This document shows, piece by piece, positions 6,199 through 61,910 of a stretch of 64,000 nucleotides of DNA. The translations under genes were made by a program, and so were the position numbers. The notes beneath the pieces are model-generated. The model was not told where the DNA came from. It made no database searches and saw only the letters and a program-made list of their open reading frames with translations. The stretch spans positions 1 to 64,000 of the forward strand of contig NZ_SCML01000035.1 of NCBI RefSeq assembly GCF_005503365.1, in the 5' to 3' direction. Numbering within the stretch: position 1 is the stretch's first letter; each line of letters begins with the position of its first letter. This DNA comes from Hydrogenophaga sp. 2FB. Lineage in GTDB: Bacteria; Pseudomonadota; Gammaproteobacteria; Burkholderiales; Burkholderiaceae_C.

Positions 6199-6214
6199 TG
6201 CCCAGCGTAGCCGG

Positions 6215-7027
6215 TCAATCCTTCAGGTCGAAGCAGAAACCGGAGTAGGACTCGACATCCACGCCCTCGGCATCGGGAATCACCATGCCCTTGCCCAGGT
6301 TGTCCCAGGCGTCTCGCTTGACGTAGCCCAGCGAGCTGACCGACTCTACGAAGGCATCGCGGGCCTGCACGCGATAGGGGCAGAACGCAGTGCCAATGCT
6401 GTTGAGCGTGAAGAACGAGCGGGTCTCGTGGATCGGGGTGGTGTTGACCACGATGCGGCGCGGCATGCGGCGCAGGTTCTTGAGCATGTCCGACAGCGTC
6501 AGGGGCAGGTATTGCAGACTGCCCGAGGCAAAGAGCACCTCTTGGCCATCGAGATCTTCGTATCGGTCGGTAAAGTGCAGCGAGCCTTCTGGCGCTCGTG
6601 CTTGGGCCAGTTCCCGGCCGCGGATCACAACCGCAGGTACGTCGCACACGGTCCACCGAATGTCTGGTGGGAAACCGATGACGCGACGGAAGGCGTAGTA
6701 CTTGACGCCGGTGTGGCCACCGAGATCGAAGAAGGTCCGCATGCCGTCACCCAACGAACGCAACAGCCAGAACATGGCGGGGTAGTCTCGCGGGCTGATC
6801 GCACTGACATAGGCGATGTTGGCGGACTCCTCGTTGTCGTAGCCGAGATGCAGGCTGGGCGGCGCACTCGCTGCGGCAGCCTCGAACGTGTCGTAGACCC
6901 CCATGAAGAGGTTCTGATCGGTGTTCTCGAGAAACCGTTGCCGGTGCGCGCTTTGGCTGACATTGCGCAGGACCGGCAGCTTGTCCAGGCGGTCAATCGC
7001 CTGATGCATCGTGTTCACCCAGGTCAT
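6215..7027 (-). CDS. Putative SAM-dependent methyltransferase, TIGR04325-like
   Basis: 270 aa. Residues around 45-60 (NLFMGVYDTFEAA) and the following LHLGYDN resemble the family of putative methyltransferases known as TIGR04325, found in surface-polysaccharide loci; FFDLGGHTG fits the SAM-binding glycine loop. The substrate is unknown, and no sugar-biosynthesis genes lie nearby, so the role is open. The ATG at 7027 has a GAGAGGG ribosome site a few bases before it; the open frame continues upstream but without recognisable sequence. Confidence 0.7.
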   Translation of the reverse strand: MTWVNTMHQAIDRLDKLPVLRNVSQSAHRQRFLENTDQNLFMGVYDTFEAAAASAPPSLHLGYDNEESANIAYVSAISPRDYPAMFWLLRSLGDGMRTFFDLGGHTGVKYYAFRRVIGFPPDIRWTVCDVPAVVIRGRELAQARAPEGSLHFTDRYEDLDGQEVLFASGSLQYLPLTLSDMLKNLRRMPRRIVVNTTPIHETRSFFTLNSIGTAFCPYRVQARDAFVESVSSLGYVKRDAWDNLGKGMVIPDAEGVDVESYSGFCFDLKD

Positions 7028-33179: not shown

Positions 33180-34514
33180 GTGAAACCCGTCATCGCCCTG
33201 GTGGGCCGCCCCAATGTGGGCAAATCCACCCTGTTCAACCGCCTGACGAGTTCACGCGACGCCATCGTGGCCGACTTTGCCGGCCTCACCCGCGACCGCC
33301 ACTACGGCAACGGCCGCCAAGGCAAGCGCGAGTACATCGTCATTGATACCGGTGGCTTCGAGCCCAAGGCGAGCGAGGGCATCTACAAGGAGATGGCCAA
33401 GCAGACCCGCCAGGCCGTGGCCGAGTCCGATGTGGTCATTTTTGTCGTCGATGCGCGCGCCGGCATCAATGCCCAGGATCACGAAATCGCGGGTTACCTG
33501 CGCCGTCTGGGGAAACCCACCCTGCTCGTGGCCAACAAGGCCGAGGGCATGACCGAAGGCGTGCAGCTGGTGGAGTTCTTTGAACTCGGCTTGGGTGAGG
33601 TTATGCCCGTGTCCGGCGCGCATGGACAGGGCATTCGCACCATGCTCGACACCGCCATGGAGCGCATTCCCGGCCTGCCACCGGAAGACCAGGAGGAGTC
33701 CGAACTCGAGACGGGCGTGATCCGCCTGGCCGTCGCAGGGCGACCCAACGTCGGCAAGTCCACCCTGATCAACGCCTGGCTGGGCGAAGAACGCCTGGTG
33801 GCCTTCGACCTGCCCGGCACCACGCGCGATGCCATTGCCGTGCCGTTCGAGCGCTCGGGCCAGAAGTTCGAGTTGATCGACACGGCGGGCATCCGCAAAA
33901 AAGGCAAGGTGTTCGAGGCCATCGAGAAATTCTCGGTGGTGAAGACCCTGCAAGCGATCGAGAATGCCCACGTCGTCCTGCTGTTGCTCGACGCCACGCA
34001 GGGCGTGACCGACCAGGACGCGCACATTGCCGGCTACATCCTGGAGAGTGGCCGCGCCGTGGTGATCGCCATCAACAAATGGGACGCGGTGGACGCCTAC
34101 CAGCGCCAGCAGATCGAGCGCCAGATCGAAACCCGCCTGGCGTTTCTGAAATTCGCCTCGCTGCACCTCATCTCGGCGCAGAAGCGCCAGGGCCTGGGGC
34201 CGGTCTGGAAGTCCATCACGCAGGCGCACGCCTCGGCCATGCGCAAGATGTCCACGCCGGTGCTCACGCGTTTGCTGATGGAGGCGGTGGCGTTTCAGGC
34301 GCCCATCCGCACGGGCATGTTCCGGCCCAAGATGCGCTATGCCCACCAGGGTGGCATGAACCCGCCCGTGATCGTGATCCACGGCAATTCGCTCGAAAAG
34401 GTGCCCGACGCCTACACGCGTTTCCTCGAAGGGCGTTTTCGCAAGGCCTTCGACCTGGTGGGAACGCCGCTGCGCATCGAGTTCAAGACCTCGGCCAATC
34501 CCTTTAAGGAGTAG
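33180..34514 (+). CDS. der: GTPase Der (EngA)
   Basis: 444 aa tandem GTPase needed for 50S ribosome assembly. Two G domains: [12 protein letters not shown] and DTGGFE in the first, [14 protein letters not shown] and DTAGIRKK in the second, each with an NKxx/NKWD motif ([15 protein letters not shown]), then the KH-like C-terminus ([19 protein letters not shown]). The start is GTG at 33180, two codons after a TTG; the frame is open further upstream inside bamB. Confidence 0.96.
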
Positions 34515-34598
34515 GAATTCGGCTTCAGCGGCGGGTGCGTACCGACGCTGTGGTATGGTCCATTCCTCATTAACAATCTTTTGAACACGGAGCATATC

Positions 34599-34850
34599 GT
34601 GAGCAATAACAAAGGCCAACTCTTGCAAGACCCCTTCCTGAACCAGCTTCGCAGGGAGCATGTGCCGGTTTCGATCTATCTGGTCAACGGCATCAAGCTT
34701 CAGGGTCAGATCGAGTCTTTCGACCAGTACGTCGTGTTGCTGCGCAACACCGTCACGCAAATGGTCTACAAGCACGCGATTTCCACCATCGTGCCGGGCC
34801 GCCCGGTGCAATTCTCGGCCGTCGGCACGGACGAGCCGGCTGGCTCCTGA
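34599..34850 (+). CDS. hfq: RNA chaperone Hfq
   Basis: 83 aa. Sm1 motif ([33 protein letters not shown]) and Sm2 motif ([13 protein letters not shown]). It forms a hexamer that pairs small RNAs with mRNAs. The start is GTG at 34599 with GGAG before it; the TTG six codons upstream lacks a ribosome site and would add MNTEHI. hfq-hflX-hflK-hflC is the classical order. Confidence 0.97.
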
Positions 34851-55735: not shown

Positions 55736-56412
55736 GCGCGGTGTTCGCCTGGACCGGCGTGACCGTGGCCGCCTACGGGGCCGCTGTGTGGCTCTACCGG
55801 CGCAGCGGCCACCACCTGTTGTGCCTGCCGGTGCTCACCGGCACGGCGCTGGTGCTGGGCGCGCTGGCGCTGGCCCACACCGACTACCCGGTGTACGCCG
55901 ACGCCACGCGCGCGCTGCGCTGGCTCACGGGCCCGGCCATCATCGCGCTGGCCGTGCCGTTGTACCGGCAGGCGGCGCTGTTGCGGCGCATGGCGGGGCC
56001 GCTGCTCGGGGCCTTGTTGGCCGGCTGCCTGGCTTCGGTGCTGGGCACGCTCGCGCTGGCGAGGGCGTTGGGCACGCCGCTGCCGTTTGCGTTGTCGCTC
56101 GCGCCCAAGGCCGCCACCATGCCGATCGCCATGCAGGCCGCGGAGGGTGCGGGTGGTCTGCCCGCGGTGGCGGCGCTGGCCGTGGTGGCCACGGGCGTGC
56201 TGGGCACCTTGTTCGCCGGGCCCGTGTTGCGCCGCTTGCGGATCGACGACGACACCACGCGCAGCTTCGCGCTCGGGCTGGTCGCGCACGCCATCGGCAC
56301 CGCGCGGGCTTTGCAGACGCAGCCGCAGAGCGTGGCCTTCGCGGCGCTGGCGATGGGCCTGAACGGTGTGTGCACGGCGCTGGTGTTGGCTCTTTTGGCG
56401 CGTTGGTTATGA
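55732..56412 (+). CDS. lrgB: LrgB-family membrane protein
   Basis: 226 aa with about six membrane helices. LrgB motifs FALSLAPKAATMPIAMQ, GVLGTLFAGPVLRRLRI and GLVAHAIGTARALQ are clear. Its start overlaps the lrgA stop, and its stop overlaps the regulator gene start, so the three are one operon. Confidence 0.9.
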   Translation: MSAVFAWTGVTVAAYGAAVWLYRRSGHHLLCLPVLTGTALVLGALALAHTDYPVYADATRALRWLTGPAIIALAVPLYRQAALLRRMAGPLLGALLAGCLASVLGTLALARALGTPLPFALSLAPKAATMPIAMQAAEGAGGLPAVAALAVVATGVLGTLFAGPVLRRLRIDDDTTRSFALGLVAHAIGTARALQTQPQSVAFAALAMGLNGVCTALVLALLARWL

Positions 56413-57833
56413 CCGGCGTTCGCCTCAGCCGTTACCAGCAACTGGCCGAAGAGATCGCCGATGGCATCCGCGCCGGGCTGCTGCGACCGGGCGAGCGGCT
56501 GCCGTCCGTGCGCGAGACCTGTGCGCTGCGCGGTGTGAGCCCGTCCACGGTGTTTCAGGCCTATGGGCAACTCGAATCGCAAGGACTGGTGGAAGCGCGG
56601 GCACGCTCGGGCTTTTTCGTGCGCGCGGCGCGGCGGGCCACACGCTCGACGCTGCAAGCCACCCGTCCCAGCGGCGAGGCCACGCCGGTGGCCATCAGCG
56701 AGCTGGTGTTCGAGCTGCTCGGCTCCACGCGCGACGCCGACGTGGTGCCCCTCGGGTCGGCCTTTCCCGCATCGCACCTGTTCCCGTTCGACGCACTCGC
56801 GCGCAGCGGCGCCCGCGCCATGCGTCGGCTGCCGGCGGCGCGCATCACCGGCGCCTTGACCGCGGGCGACGAAGGCCTGCGCCAGGCCCTGCGGCGGCGC
56901 TATGCGCTGCACGGCGTGCCGCTGGCCGAGGACGAACTCGTCATCACCAACGGCGCGATGGAAGCGCTCAACCTCTGCCTGCAGGCCGTGACGCAACCGG
57001 GTGACGTGGTGGTGGTGGAGTCACCCACTTTCTACGCCGCGCTGCAGGCACTCGAACGCCTGCACCTGAAGGCGGTGGAGGTGGCCACCGATCCGCGCGA
57101 GGGCGTGGACATCGCCGCGCTGGCCGAATTGCTGGAACGCCAACCCGTGGCGGCCTGCTGGTTCATGCCGAGCTTCCAGAACCCGCTGGGCGCGCTGATG
57201 CCGCCCGAACGCAAGCAGGCGCTGGTCGAGTTGCTCGCGCGACACCGCGTGCCGCTGATCGAGGACGACGTGTACGGCGAGCTGCACGCGGGTGCGCGCC
57301 GCCCTCCGCCAGCCAAGGCCTTCGACCGCGAGGGTGGGGTGCTGCACTGCGCGTCGTTCTCCAAATGCCTCGCGCCGGGCTACCGCGTGGGCTGGGCAGC
57401 GGCGGGCCGTTATGCGCCCGTGGTGGAGCGATTGAAGATGTCGAGCTCACTGGCCACGTCCATTCCGCCGCAACTGGCGCTGGTCGACTACCTGGCCCAG
57501 GGTGGCTACGACCGCCACCTGCGCCGCCTGCGCGAAGCACTCGCGGACCAGCAGCAGCACGCGCTGCGCCTGGTGGAGCGGCACTTTCCCAGCGGCACGC
57601 GCGTCACGCGCCCGCTCGGTGGCTACTTCCTCTGGCTGGAGCTGCCGCCGCAGGTGGACGCGCTCGCGCTGCACCACCGGGCCAGGGCGCACAACATCAG
57701 CACCGCGCCCGGCGTGTTGTTCTCGGCCGACCGGCGTTTTACGCACCACCTCCGCTTGAACGTCGGGCATCCGGACGATCCGCGTTTTGATGGTGCGATG
57801 CGCCTGTTGGGGGAATTGGCGCATGCGGGTTGA
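56409..57833 (+). CDS. MocR-type GntR/aminotransferase regulator
   Basis: 474 aa. N-terminal GntR winged helix (RYQQLAEEIADGIRAGLLRPGERLPSVRETCALRGVSPSTVFQAYGQLESQGLVEARARSG) fused to a fold-type-I aminotransferase domain. The PLP lysine is in ASFSKCLAPGYRVGW, with EDDVYGEL before it. Such proteins sense PLP or an amino compound. The stop overlaps the next gene frame, but the actual start of the methyltransferase lies downstream. It probably controls the lrgAB genes. Confidence 0.9.
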   Translation: MTGVRLSRYQQLAEEIADGIRAGLLRPGERLPSVRETCALRGVSPSTVFQAYGQLESQGLVEARARSGFFVRAARRATRSTLQATRPSGEATPVAISELVFELLGSTRDADVVPLGSAFPASHLFPFDALARSGARAMRRLPAARITGALTAGDEGLRQALRRRYALHGVPLAEDELVITNGAMEALNLCLQAVTQPGDVVVVESPTFYAALQALERLHLKAVEVATDPREGVDIAALAELLERQPVAACWFMPSFQNPLGALMPPERKQALVELLARHRVPLIEDDVYGELHAGARRPPPAKAFDREGGVLHCASFSKCLAPGYRVGWAAAGRYAPVVERLKMSSSLATSIPPQLALVDYLAQGGYDRHLRRLREALADQQQHALRLVERHFPSGTRVTRPLGGYFLWLELPPQVDALALHHRARAHNISTAPGVLFSADRRFTHHLRLNVGHPDDPRFDGAMRLLGELAHAG

Positions 57834-57904
57834 GGACCCATCCACCCGCGTGCGGCTTCACCTGGGCTAGGATGTCAGACATAGGCCAGCCACCGACACT
57901 CACG

Positions 57905-58528
57905 ATGATGAACACGAAAGCGCAATCACACTGGGATCGCGTGTACAGCACCAAGGACGCGGACGCGGTCAGCTGGTACCAGCCTGAAGCCACGGTGTCC
58001 TTGAACCTGATCTCGCGACTCGCGACCGATGCCAGCAGCCATATCCTGGACGTCGGCGCAGGCGCGTCGAACCTCGTCGACGGCTTGATATCGCGCGGCA
58101 TGCGTCGGGTGAGCGTGCTGGACATCTCGAGTGAAGGCCTTGCCGTCGCGCGCCGCCGTCTCGGTGCGGATGCGAACAAAGTGCGGTGGATCGAGGCCGA
58201 CGTTACCAAGGTGTGTCTTGAGGCGGCGAGCGTCGACGTCTGGCACGACCGCGCCGTATTTCATTTCCTGACCGAGCCGAAGGACCGTGCCGCGTACGTC
58301 GAGCAAGTGCGAAAAGCGGTGCGTCCGGGTGGGCACGTCATCGTCGCGGCGTTCGCGCCCGACGGCCCGCTGCAGTGCAGCGGCTTGCCCGTCGTTCGCT
58401 ACGACCCCGAAGGGCTCCATGCCCAGTTTGGCGCGCACTTCGAGCTGCTGGAACACATCGAAGAGCAACATCAAACGCCCATGGGTTCAACACAGCACTT
58501 CATCTATTGCCACTGTCTGGTGCATTAG
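57905..58528 (+). CDS. SAM-dependent methyltransferase
   Basis: 207 aa class I methyltransferase: WDRVYSTKDADAVSWYQPEA, SAM loop ILDVGAGASNLVDGLI, ADVTKVCLE, and VRPGGHVIVAAFAPDGPLQCSGL. It resembles the tellurite/thiol-methyltransferase-like group (DUF of class I trans-SAM). Substrate unknown. ATG 57905 (or 57908) gives the family N-terminus; the open frame reaches back to 57830 and overlaps the MocR gene but has no similar residues there. G+C starts to fall after this gene. Confidence 0.85.
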   Translation: MMNTKAQSHWDRVYSTKDADAVSWYQPEATVSLNLISRLATDASSHILDVGAGASNLVDGLISRGMRRVSVLDISSEGLAVARRRLGADANKVRWIEADVTKVCLEAASVDVWHDRAVFHFLTEPKDRAAYVEQVRKAVRPGGHVIVAAFAPDGPLQCSGLPVVRYDPEGLHAQFGAHFELLEHIEEQHQTPMGSTQHFIYCHCLVH

Positions 58529-58613
58529 CGCTGTTGGCCCGGTGCGGATCTATACGCTTGCGGCCAGCGGCCACGAGTGGACAGTCCTTCGCCCCTCGAA
58601 AATAGGAGATTAC
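58529..58613 (+). other. Intergenic stretch at the left edge of the low-G+C segment
   Basis: No gene, terminator or clear promoter is visible. A strong AGGAG ribosome site at its right end serves the small gene that follows. Confidence 0.4.
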
Positions 58614-58811
58614 GTGAAGCCTCGCAACACGAAAGATCAGGCAGAGGTCGAGCGGGGCGACGCTTGGTCTCGTCGGCAAGCATCGCTCGGTGTGAACTGT
58701 CTATTCTTCGGGCCGGGATACAAACTCGCCCTGGAACAACACCAAGTACTCCGATGTCGCGTCTGGCGCAACGGGAGAGAATGCGCGATTGGCTTCAATA
58801 TATTGAACTGA
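58614..58811 (+). CDS. Small hypothetical protein
   Basis: 65 aa from GTG 58614, which has AGGAG six bases before it. The sequence is mixed (VKPRNTKDQAEVERGDAWSR, FFGPGYKLALEQHQVL) and not recognised. It may be a remnant; the frame is open upstream to 58287 inside the methyltransferase gene but only this part follows a ribosome site. G+C is clearly lower than in the flanks. Confidence 0.35.
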   Translation: MKPRNTKDQAEVERGDAWSRRQASLGVNCLFFGPGYKLALEQHQVLRCRVWRNGRECAIGFNILN

Positions 58812-58925
58812 GAACCATCGGCTATCGGCGGCGAACGCCAAATCGTCAAGACTTGTATCTACTCGCGCTTCGAGATGCATCCGCTGTAGCTTTGCTTGCG
58901 CTTTGACGTTGCCGACACATGCGTA

Positions 58926-59525
58926 TTAGTGCGCAAGCGCGAGCAAGTCGGGGCTGTGGAGCAGTTCATCAGCAAATCTACGGAGCATTCGAAAGTGATT
59001 GTTCACCACTGGAGCCGAGACCTTCTCGCCATCTTCCGCTATCTTCGTTGTGAGCCAGAAACCCTCGTTTAGCGCATCGAGGTTCACGTCGGGCGAGTCA
59101 ACGTGTGCTCCACCATCTTTGTTCGCCGCCGCCAAGATGACATCTCTTCTACACAGAAGGTGCCCATTTATGAGATAGACGGGCTGCACCCACCACTCGT
59201 AGCATGGGATTGAAGGCAGACCAAAGTCGATGGGCGTGTACTCGATTGACTCGCCAAATGTCATCCCTCCCATGAGTTCGGCAACATCGACGCCGTTGGG
59301 AATCTGATCGCCCCGCACTTTCACGGTAGTTGTGAGTTGCAGCGTGTTCTTCACACCAAGTTGCTTCATCAGAGAGTGACTAAACCTGGTGTCGTGGCAT
59401 AGCACCCGAACACCGACAGCGATGCGGACCGCCTCCTCCTTGTGTCCCGCGTCATACGCTGCCGCAGAGTTGCGAAGGAAAAGCAGCTGACGTGTCAATT
59501 GCTTATGGAGCTCAAAGGAAGTCAT
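58926..59525 (-). CDS. Hypothetical protein (about 200 aa)
   Basis: 199 aa from ATG 59525, no signal peptide or membrane segment. It starts with a helical stretch (TSFELHKQLTRQLLFLRNSAAAYDAGHKEEAVRIA) and has a later beta-rich part (CYEWWVQPVYLINGHLLCRRDVI). I do not recognise the family. The A+T-richer composition sets it apart from its neighbours. The frame extends 45 codons upstream; that part is not convincing. It may form an operon with the membrane protein gene upstream on the same strand. Confidence 0.6.
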   Translation of the reverse strand: MTSFELHKQLTRQLLFLRNSAAAYDAGHKEEAVRIAVGVRVLCHDTRFSHSLMKQLGVKNTLQLTTTVKVRGDQIPNGVDVAELMGGMTFGESIEYTPIDFGLPSIPCYEWWVQPVYLINGHLLCRRDVILAAANKDGGAHVDSPDVNLDALNEGFWLTTKIAEDGEKVSAPVVNNHFRMLRRFADELLHSPDLLALAH

Positions 59526-59667
59526 GAGTATTGAACTTGCGAGAGGAGATAACGACTTCGAGTCGGAAAACGTGCTTTGCGCTGAACGATCACTCCCAGG
59601 GGGCTTCAGCGTTCGCTCTGGAATATGCATATGAAGACGAACGCAAGCATGCGGCCGCATGCCGACA

Positions 59668-60426
59668 TCAATGCAACAGGCCTTTAGAAGCCATGGACCT
59701 TATAGCTGCGTTCAGTGTTCCGAATTCCTCAACCGCCTTCTTGGCCCCCACATCTCCGATGCGACGACGCCAAGAATCAACACGGTTTGCAAACTCCAAG
59801 AAAATGTCGGCGTCCTCCGGACGCAAGCCAACGTTGAAATTTTCTGCGGGATTCCACTGTCGTGGGTCTCCATACCGCGGGAAGGTCCGTCGGTATTCGG
59901 CCGCAGCAACGCTCGTGTCACGTCCCTGAAGTCGTGCTATGTCGACGTAAACGAAATTCAGCATCTCACGCATTTTGTTCTCGCTTAGCACGACGACCAG
60001 TGGACGATTCCAGTGATGCCTGATGTCCTCTGCGGTCAGGCCTTCTGCAAGACGCGGTGCCGTGAATTCTGGATTCGCAGCAAGCTCGTCGCCCCTTGTC
60101 TGCTTAAAGGGATCAACACCTAGGCCTTTTAGTTCAGCCAGAACCTCTGTGACGATGCGTGATGACGCTTCAAGGGCATCGGATTCTTTGAGGCCAAGCT
60201 CCATGAAAGTGAGCGTGAAGGAGGCTATCAATCGCTGTTCTTGCGATGTGATCATTACGCCAGGGGCAAGTGCTTCGAGGGTTTGTGCACCGGGGCGCCA
60301 AACGAACGCTCCATACGTCATGGCGAACATGAGACTGCCAAACAGAATGCCTGAAATCACTCCATTGGTGGAAAGCCCCAGGAAAAATCCGAGGAGACCC
60401 AGAACGATCGCTGTAGTGGTTCCCAT
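59668..60426 (-). CDS. Hypothetical protein with two N-terminal membrane helices
   Basis: 252 aa. Two hydrophobic helices at about 5-37 (IVLGLLGFFLGLSTNGVISG and ILFGSLMFAMTYGAFVW), then a cytoplasmic or periplasmic helical part of about 200 residues with SFTLTFMELGLKESDALEAS and FLEFANRVDSWRRRIG. No family recognised. It is the first gene of the low-G+C minus-strand pair. No ribosome site is evident before ATG 60426. Confidence 0.6.
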   Translation of the reverse strand: MGTTTAIVLGLLGFFLGLSTNGVISGILFGSLMFAMTYGAFVWRPGAQTLEALAPGVMITSQEQRLIASFTLTFMELGLKESDALEASSRIVTEVLAELKGLGVDPFKQTRGDELAANPEFTAPRLAEGLTAEDIRHHWNRPLVVVLSENKMREMLNFVYVDIARLQGRDTSVAAAEYRRTFPRYGDPRQWNPAENFNVGLRPEDADIFLEFANRVDSWRRRIGDVGAKKAVEEFGTLNAAIRSMASKGLLH

Positions 60427-60722
60427 GATAGGTCTGTTAAATATCTGACTGAATCAGCGGGTGCTGTGTATCGATTCGCCGAGAAGCGGCAAGCAAAATT
60501 GGCGCAGTTGACCTATCGTTTGCACGCAGGTGGTGGATGGGTTGCGGATAAATGTCCGTTTGTGGCGGCAATGGCCGTCATAGTAGCTGAGGCAGAAACG
60601 GTCCCTAGGCAGACTTGGCGTTGCGGATCCATTTAGCGTCACAACACAAATCTTTCCAAATCTTGTCGATCGCCACGCACCAGCTTCGTCGTGAAGGCAT
60701 CAGCCATCAAAAAGGATTTGTC
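60427..60722. other. Gene-free stretch at the right edge of the low-G+C segment
   Basis: 296 bases without a convincing gene. It must hold the promoter of the minus-strand pair and that of the YCII gene, but I find no good -35/-10 pair. Part of it (60530-60600) looks like a worn coding or repeat remnant; this is an impression only. Confidence 0.4.
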
Positions 60723-61091
60723 ATGAAGTACCTCGGCCTCGCGTACTACAACCCCGAAAAATTCGCCGCGATGGCGCCAGGCGACGTGCAAGCACTGGTG
60801 AGCCAATGCCCGCCGATGGATGAAAAGATGCGCGCCACCGGGAAGGTTCTGGTGTCCGCGTCACTTTCCGAGCCCAAGGACTGGATGACGCTGCGCCCGC
60901 GCGGCGGCAAGCCACAGATCAGCGACGGGCCCTATACCGAGTCCAAGGAAGTGGTGGGTGGGCTGTTCATCATCGAGGCGGCAGACCGTGACGAGGCGAT
61001 GCGCCTCGCGGCCATGCACCCCGCCGCTTCGTTGGGTGAAGCGGGAGGATGGGGCATCGAGTTGATTCCCATGGATTTCTTCCTGGGCTGA
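60723..61091 (+). CDS. YCII-domain protein
   Basis: 122 aa, one YCII domain: MKYLGLAYYNPEKF, SEPKDWMTLRPRGG and the signature DGPYTESKEVVGGLFIIEA. YCII proteins have a dimeric alpha/beta barrel fold with a conserved His/Asp pair in some members; family genes often sit beside ECF sigma factors, but none is here. AAGGA precedes the ATG. Function unknown. Confidence 0.85.
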   Translation: MKYLGLAYYNPEKFAAMAPGDVQALVSQCPPMDEKMRATGKVLVSASLSEPKDWMTLRPRGGKPQISDGPYTESKEVVGGLFIIEAADRDEAMRLAAMHPAASLGEAGGWGIELIPMDFFLG

Positions 61092-61166
61092 TGGTGGTCC
61101 GGGTCCGTCTGCCCCAGGGCATGGCGGGCCCGAATCGCTCTCAAGCTCTGCGCGGATAATCCCCGG

Positions 61167-61910
61167 ATGTCTTCTCCCAAAGTGCTGTTCGGCTTTCACG
61201 CCGTGGGTGTGCGCCTCAAAACCGCGCCGCAATCGATCATCGAGATCTACTACGAGCCCACGCGGCGCGACGCGCGCATGCGCCAGTTCCTGGACAAGGC
61301 GCGCGAAGCCAATGCGAGGTTGATCGAGGCCGACAGCCTGCGCATTGCCAAGTTGGCCGGCAGCCACGGCCACCAGGGCGTGGCCGCGCGCGTGGAAGAG
61401 ATCAAGCAGGTGCACTCGCTCGATGAGCTGCTGGAGCAACTCGAAGCGGCGGGCATCCCGCCGCTGCTGCTCGTGCTCGACGGCATCACCGACCCGCACA
61501 ACCTCGGCGCCTGCCTGCGGGTGGCCGACGGCGCCGGTGCGCACGCGGTGATCGCACCCAAGGACCACGCGGCCGGCATCAACGCCACCGTGGCCAAGGT
61601 GGCCAGCGGCGCGGCCGAGACCATGCCGTACTTCATGGTCACCAACCTGGCGCGCACGCTGGGCGAACTCAAGGAACGCAACATCTGGGTCATCGGCACC
61701 AGCGACGACGCGCCCAAGACGCTTTACCAGGTCGATCTCAAGGGTCCGGTGGCACTGGTGCTGGGCGCGGAAGGCGCGGGCATGCGCCAGCTCACGCGCA
61801 AGACTTGCGACGAGCTCGTGAGCATTCCCATGGCCGGCGCGGTGGAAAGCCTGAACGTGTCGGTGGCCAGCGGCGTGTGTCTGTACGAAGCGCTGCGCCA
61901 GCGCACCTGA
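61167..61910 (+). CDS. rlmB: 23S rRNA (guanosine-2251-2'-O)-methyltransferase
   Basis: 247 aa SpoU/TrmH-fold enzyme. N-terminal substrate-binding domain (FGFHAVGVRLKTAP) and the knotted catalytic domain with LDGITDPHNLGACLRVAD, VLGAEGAGMRQLT and IPMAGAVESLNVSVASGV. It methylates G2251 in the P-site loop of 23S rRNA. TrmH-family relatives are excluded by the N-terminal domain. Confidence 0.95.
   Translation: MSSPKVLFGFHAVGVRLKTAPQSIIEIYYEPTRRDARMRQFLDKAREANARLIEADSLRIAKLAGSHGHQGVAARVEEIKQVHSLDELLEQLEAAGIPPLLLVLDGITDPHNLGACLRVADGAGAHAVIAPKDHAAGINATVAKVASGAAETMPYFMVTNLARTLGELKERNIWVIGTSDDAPKTLYQVDLKGPVALVLGAEGAGMRQLTRKTCDELVSIPMAGAVESLNVSVASGVCLYEALRQRT

Follow-up and report, generated by a model that had tools for sequence, protein, structure and literature searches.

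A patchwork insert in Hydrogenophaga sp. 2FB carrying a PHROG 7805 mobile cargo gene with a possible role in phage defence

The insert and its genes

The window, by which we mean the whole 64,000-nucleotide stretch of Hydrogenophaga sp. 2FB contig NZ_SCML01000035.1 that was analysed, contains towards its right end a group of accessory and orphan genes situated between a regulator gene and an rRNA methyltransferase gene that we take to be rlmB (Table 1). The average G+C content of the window is 0.66, and it falls to 0.52-0.58 across ~58.4-60.9 kb. When measured in 500-base segments at steps of 100 bases, 22 segments in total are below 0.58, of which one is at 34,301 and the other 21 all have start positions from 58,401 to 60,401. 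Third-position G+C (GC3) is likewise low in the small ORF (0.61), protein A (0.63) and protein B (0.55), all of them under the minimum (0.65) of 41 reference ORFs. The low-G+C island of the original prediction is thus borne out by sliding-window G+C and by GC3, and the three ORFs placed in it are present: a small plus-strand gene, and the minus-strand genes for the 199-residue A and for B with its two N-terminal hydrophobic helices. The segment at 34301-34800 is the sole other 500-base stretch in the window below 0.58 G+C.

Table 1. Positions of the insert, its genes and its flanking genes in the window.
Feature	Coordinates	Strand	Evidence
Left flank, GntR/MocR-type regulator with aminotransferase-like domain	56409..57833	+	ORF; family name read from sequence
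Whole insert, between the GntR/MocR-type regulator gene and rlmB	57840..61150	none	Empty-site comparison
Class I SAM-dependent methyltransferase, accessory	57905..58528	+	Pfam Methyltransf_25, 1.5e-14
Small ORF, 65 aa, orphan	58614..58811	+	GTG start, AGGAG-like site upstream; low GC3
Protein A, 199 aa, family phrog_7805	58926..59525	-	PHROG match; AF2 model
Protein B, 252 aa, two N-terminal hydrophobic helices, orphan	59668..60426	-	ORF
YCII-domain protein, accessory	60723..61091	+	Pfam YCII, 8e-14
Right flank, rlmB-type rRNA methyltransferase gene	61167..61910	+	Present in 40 of 40 same-genus genomes

The limits of the insert are revealed by the region upstream of the rlmB-type gene, which was taken from 20 of the 40 same-genus genomes. 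In four of these 20 loci (L121-L124) the regulator gene directly precedes rlmB, its protein being 85-93% identical to that of the window, and DNA homology to the window ends at 57823-57837 and restarts at 61148-61155. Because the two flanking genes adjoin in these empty sites, the insert is ~3.3 kb long, with the methyltransferase and YCII genes inside it. It follows that base composition returns to normal within the insert and not at its end; the dip itself had been placed correctly, whereas the right-hand limit proposed for the segment, at the YCII gene, does not hold. For the remaining 16 loci the fetched stretch yielded no regulator relative, and neither A nor B was found in any of the 20. 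The segment is foreign, as had been predicted, and this is supported by the empty site, by the composition, and by the finding of A and of B in just one of the 60 relatives searched, which is the window's own genome. Neither gene is conserved at this site, and no match to a housekeeping family was found.

There is little at the ends of the insert to indicate how it arrived. No repeats bounding it were found, just short imperfect ones, among them a 16-nt inverted pair (I3, at 57812 and 61275) that lies within the flanking genes. No tRNA gene was found in the window, no Rfam match between 57700 and 61300, and no plasmid match in a DNA similarity search with the island. A sigma-70-like site was also not found in the region, which has no bearing on whether A has a promoter of its own.

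The two accessory genes at the edges of the insert are sparsely distributed. The methyltransferase is present in two of the 40 same-genus genomes, own genome counted, so that one other genome carries a relative. The YCII gene is present in nine of the 40, again counting its own genome, with the relatives placed elsewhere in those genomes; in the eight relatives fetched just 401-526 bases around this gene match the window. The matching segment, consisting of the YCII gene and ~40-120 bases upstream (window 60604-61128), has 78-90% DNA identity in these eight same-genus relatives with differing surroundings, as if the gene and its short upstream stretch move as a small unit. One same-genus genome (L114) has, immediately upstream of its YCII relative and on the other strand, a second, weaker YCII-like stretch (6199-6399, 42% identity).

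Protein B and the small ORF have no convincing relatives. Searches of Pfam, PADLOC and NCBIfam gave no match for B, and its PHROG matches are to holins alone (E 0.096 and 7.4); the protein is missing from the other 59 of the 60 relatives searched, from the other 368 of 369 genomes of the class, and from the plasmids, phages and viral contigs searched, and a model built from its single sequence is poor (pLDDT 47). The best match of the small ORF in Pfam, PADLOC, NCBIfam and PHROG scans has an E-value of 0.25, and no match was found in plasmids. The description of the three genes as unrecognised therefore stands for B and the small ORF and fails for A, which belongs to a PHROG family.

It had also been proposed that A and B form a membrane-plus-soluble defence module. 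They share a strand, are separated by a gap of 142 bases and are similarly low in G+C; however, B is present at none of the 93 loci with A relatives and in no other collection searched, and A has no conserved partner, so that a conserved pair is ruled out and a module of this kind is highly improbable. The insert is most likely a small patchwork in which B and the small ORF are unrelated passengers, and what it contains besides A looks like a set of such passengers.

Protein A and its family

Protein A matches phrog_7805 (E 2e-32), with residues 50-242 of a longer, 244-residue reading aligning to positions 13-215 of the 218-position profile, and this match over most of the length places it in PHROG 7805, a family annotated as being of unknown function. 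Relatives were found in nine phage records representing five phages (Lactobacillus PL-1, J-1 and PLE2, Gordonia JuJu, and Arthrobacter BrayBeast), in 22 plasmid records, in 148 genome stretches (80 of them retained) and in 48 viral contigs; the genome and viral scans demanded the pattern NxDGGAH[VLI]D or DGGAHVD, and the phage and plasmid matches were found without it. No convincing match to the core of A was obtained in Pfam, in PADLOC or in NCBIfam (the last scanned with the window protein alone), and searching the PDB by sequence gave nothing better than E 0.63. DNA searches of E. coli genomes with A and with its Klebsiella relative showed no similarity. We found no paper, within the literature searched, for 'phrog_7805', spelling variants of it, or the string DGGAHVD.

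The family is widely dispersed. A tree of 78 sequences (the window protein plus 77 sequences from the 80 genome loci, after exclusion of three whose frames were short or broken) mixes phyla, requiring 31 label changes against a possible minimum of 13. Shuffling the labels gives a mean of 45.6 changes, and none of 200 shuffles is as low as 31, which indicates some clustering of the labels as well. The window protein groups with full support with relatives from Comamonadaceae, Gallionella and one 'Bacteroidetes' bin, and at least one archaeal bin (L077) contains a member. Some of the mixing of phyla may result from mis-binned contigs. A contig binned as Bacteroidetes has an A relative and neighbours, including recombinase and DUF2924-type genes, that closely resemble those of Hylemonella (loci L020, 7980-8588, and L019, 4126-4734), and it is probably either mis-binned or home to a shared mobile element.

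Several members are extended at the C-terminus. Pfam identifies a C-terminal SEC-C motif in 13 of the 78 members and TPR repeats in one; a strict pattern finds SEC-C in seven of 93, and the Pfam figure is used here. In a deltaproteobacterial bin (L093, 7971-9788) the A relative is continued by a long series of TPR repeats, the fusion protein having 605 residues. Mycobacterial and Nocardia relatives (L008, 5977-7149; L042, 7974-9128; L051, 7938-9137) have a C-terminal extension of ~170 residues that, by eye, seems to consist of two similar halves.

Conserved residues and predicted fold

Ten residues do not vary among the 78 sequences: D25, R40, R126, N135, D137, G138, G139, A140, H141 and D143. 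A further five (H44, W111, W112, R182 and E187) are conserved in all but one or two sequences (76 or 77 of 78). The invariance of the N-x-DGGAH-x-D loop is inflated by its use in the search pattern, of which D25, R40, R126, W111 and W112 were not part. Comparison of the window protein with 13 relatives from phages and plasmids, in the search for which no pattern was used, leaves Q13, R40, W111, W112, D137, G138, G139, H141 and E187 invariant, and loop variants such as DGGSHVD (L012) and DGGAHVG (L006) occur among phage and plasmid relatives of this kind. Overall, the family signature consists of R-x3-H, WW, R, N-x-DGGAH-x-D and R-x4-E.

A further member is apparent from a search of predicted viral structures. 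The top match is a 189-residue protein of Gordonia phage Bowser (E 5e-7; one other match has E 2.7e-4), which, judging from its length, we take to be gp33. Bowser gp33 (L253, 27334-27903) fits the family profile (6e-25 in a search of two sequences), and its loop reads NTDAIHYD, having lost the GG and retained N, D, H and D.

Conservation of this type also bears on whether the insert does anything at all. The patchwork of accessory genes, with B and the small ORF as orphans, is in keeping with a decaying remnant that has no function; we regard this as improbable, in that the A reading frame is intact and has kept every near-invariant residue of the family even though its relatives are just 25-56% identical to it.

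An AlphaFold2 model of A built from the 78 sequences is of high confidence (pLDDT 90.3, pTM 0.87), and contains long helices at residues 3-25, 31-43, 126-136 and 177-189 with strands in between. Foldseek finds no match to the model in the PDB at E≤0.001. The best weak match reported by VIA-align is to residues 327-454 of Csx1, presumably its HEPN domain, with a Z-score of 4.1 and an rmsd of 4.2 over 98 residues (the runner-up has Z 2.6), a score that can reflect merely a common arrangement, in a list that covers a limited set of families.

The HEPN motif is defined as R-x4-6-H in PMC3710099, and it is not conserved in the A family, the commonest column pair with this spacing being present in three of the 78 sequences; where R and H are each conserved in at least 90% of the sequences, 3, 9, 14, 100 or 106 residues lie between them. 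Comparison by hhalign with DUF4145, Abi_2 and HEPN (20, 28 and 3 sequences) gives probabilities below 1% in each case, but in the positive control known relatives equally missed each other, with 2.3% for DUF4145 against Abi_2 and 0.1% for DUF4145 against HEPN. A resembles the HEPN superfamily in its mostly helical core, its conserved polar residues and the histidine in its loop, and the A family shares with one HEPN family, LA2681, the occurrence of a TPR fusion, as reported for that family in PMC3710099. It differs in having neither R-x4-6-H nor a match in the profile comparison just described, and in the strands that separate its second long helix from the helices that follow. It could be a true but strongly diverged HEPN-superfamily RNase, a reading compatible with an anti-phage function and drawing on the Csx1 match, the helical core and the TPR fusion, but the missing motif and the lack of a PDB match in Foldseek make this unlikely. 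With the motif not conserved and the Z-score low, we do not class A as a HEPN protein, and it may nonetheless work like a HEPN RNase.

Genomic surroundings and a candidate role in defence

The surroundings of the A relatives vary, and there is no recurrent partner; the largest other ORF cluster spans eight of the 93 loci, at scattered distances. In Lactobacillus phage PL-1 the gene overlaps the integrase gene, in Arthrobacter phage BrayBeast it is 1.3 kb from the integrase, in Gordonia phage JuJu it comes after the tail genes, with the integrase 3 kb away, and Bowser gp33 lies within a reversed block, an integrase being 1.5 kb away. It is reversed among late genes in a Klebsiella plasmid with phage genes, and four small plasmids (6-11 kb) of lactic acid bacteria have six to eight annotated genes each, this one among them. 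Another A relative, in the Gallionella locus L017, has a replication protein and an integrase upstream of it. At the loci viewed in detail A is thus positioned as cargo would be. Temperate phages and plasmids carry the gene singly, and close relatives of the host lack it; that A is mobile, stand-alone cargo of prophages and plasmids, belonging to an undescribed family, is well supported.

The proximity to integrases in PL-1 and BrayBeast, together with the occurrence on very small plasmids, raises the possibility of roles other than defence, such as lysogeny control, host modification, plasmid stability or stress. A general role in lysogeny control is argued against by a seven-seed scan in which an integrase or recombinase was detected within 2.5 kb of A in 18 of 141 loci and none in the other 123, a scan that undercounts and missed at least one integrase, that of L017. 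Conserved residues that look catalytic, and the plasmid neighbours described below, also weigh against these other roles, which we consider rather unlikely; in their favour are the lack of a convincing PADLOC match to the core of A and of any PADLOC enrichment near it.

Product names indicate neighbours of a defence type in seven of the 14 plasmid loci viewed (from the 22 records), namely L010, L011, L012, L014, L015, L016 and L251. They include restriction-modification subunits, SIR2, a three-component ABC system, and an AAA ATPase with a helicase. None was seen in L007, L008, L009, L013, L249, L250 and L252, among which L009 has phage DNA methyltransferases and L013 has toxin-antitoxin-type genes; L250 and L251 encode identical A proteins. 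On six large plasmids, defence-type neighbours are present at four of the six A flanks and in none of six control stretches, each 44-50 kb long and taken from the plasmids concerned, using a defence word list that was fixed after the neighbours had been seen and a control count that excludes lone helicases, an AAA ATPase by a transposase, an addiction-module antidote and a non-specific endonuclease.

PADLOC profiles do not add to this. At the genome loci, 117 families match among the 148 proteins nearest to A and 267 among 126 proteins beyond 4.5 kb (25 families of each set being listed by name), with no enrichment near A; the comparison is not decisive, since it tallies families and not proteins, and the far genes can share the same island. 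The window protein itself matches no PADLOC model. Among the 78 members, eight models score at E≤0.1, namely PDC-S12 and E1-E2/E2 models, in at most 13 members, the same number that carry the C-terminal SEC-C motif, and PglZ in one member at 0.003; PDC-S15 is matched at 0.005 in one of 14. None of these is a convincing match of a known defence system to the core of A. The phage-defence role suggested in the original prediction is thus plausible for A alone, from its mobile context and some of its plasmid neighbours, and gains no support from the PADLOC comparison of near and far genes.

Our proposal, to which we give about even weight, is that A is stand-alone prophage or plasmid cargo acting as an intracellular enzyme that protects its carrier against other phages; its defence role and its chemistry are both what we infer. 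A reached the chromosome as part of the small patchwork insert; infection would trigger it to harm either the infected cell or the invader, with the carrier protected by abortive infection or superinfection exclusion. Counting against the proposal, besides the PADLOC results, are the few loci in which the undercounting scan detected an integrase within 2.5 kb, the seven plasmid loci that lack a defence-type neighbour, the missing HEPN motif and the low Z-score. The putative active site would be formed by the N-x-DGGAH-x-D loop together with R40/H44, R126, D25 and R182/E187, and the leading, if tentative, candidate for its chemistry is that of a helical-bundle RNase akin to the HEPN proteins. 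A broader and more doubtful proposition is that PHROG 7805 as a whole is an undescribed and very widespread family of single-protein phage-defence enzymes with a signature of its own, whose fold would be new for an enzyme or else HEPN-like with the active site rearranged, and which is carried by prophages and plasmids across the bacteria and in at least one archaeal bin.

The closest parallel in how A might work is Tha, a HEPN anti-phage protein of Staphylococcus aureus prophages that protects the lysogen, and whose inhibitor gene was previously mistaken for an excisionase gene (PMC11087260). A is similarly encoded by temperate phages, but Tha is described as having an R-x4-H motif and DALI Z-scores of 9.0 and 9.9 to HEPN RNases (PMC11087260), and A lacks the motif and has Z 4.1 to Csx1. 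If the defence proposal is correct, A adds to the single-gene systems by which prophages counter their rivals, and the 'hypothetical protein' of Lactobacillus, Gordonia and Arthrobacter phages, of dairy plasmids and of many phyla would be a single defence-type family with a recognisable signature. A is small, stands alone and is confidently modelled, and it can therefore be cloned and tested directly.

Prophage morons, or lysogenic-conversion genes, provide a second parallel. Like them A is a single gene, in several loci oriented opposite to the late genes, that is found in many mobile elements and near antirestriction-type and O-antigen-modifying genes, and it differs in being present also on chromosomes with no obvious prophage, that of the window included. 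In viral contig L138 (6001-12588) A lies in reverse orientation, flanked by an endolysin-type gene (phrog_7, 1e-22) and by a gene for a 1965-residue protein, whose best matches are two PHROGs of unknown function and whose N-terminal part matches DarB-like antirestriction (4e-147). L139 (2612-9202) has the same layout with a large protein of 1966 residues, the DarB-like part having been scanned in L138 alone, and in L136 one small ORF separates A from an O-antigen acetylase gene (8e-168).
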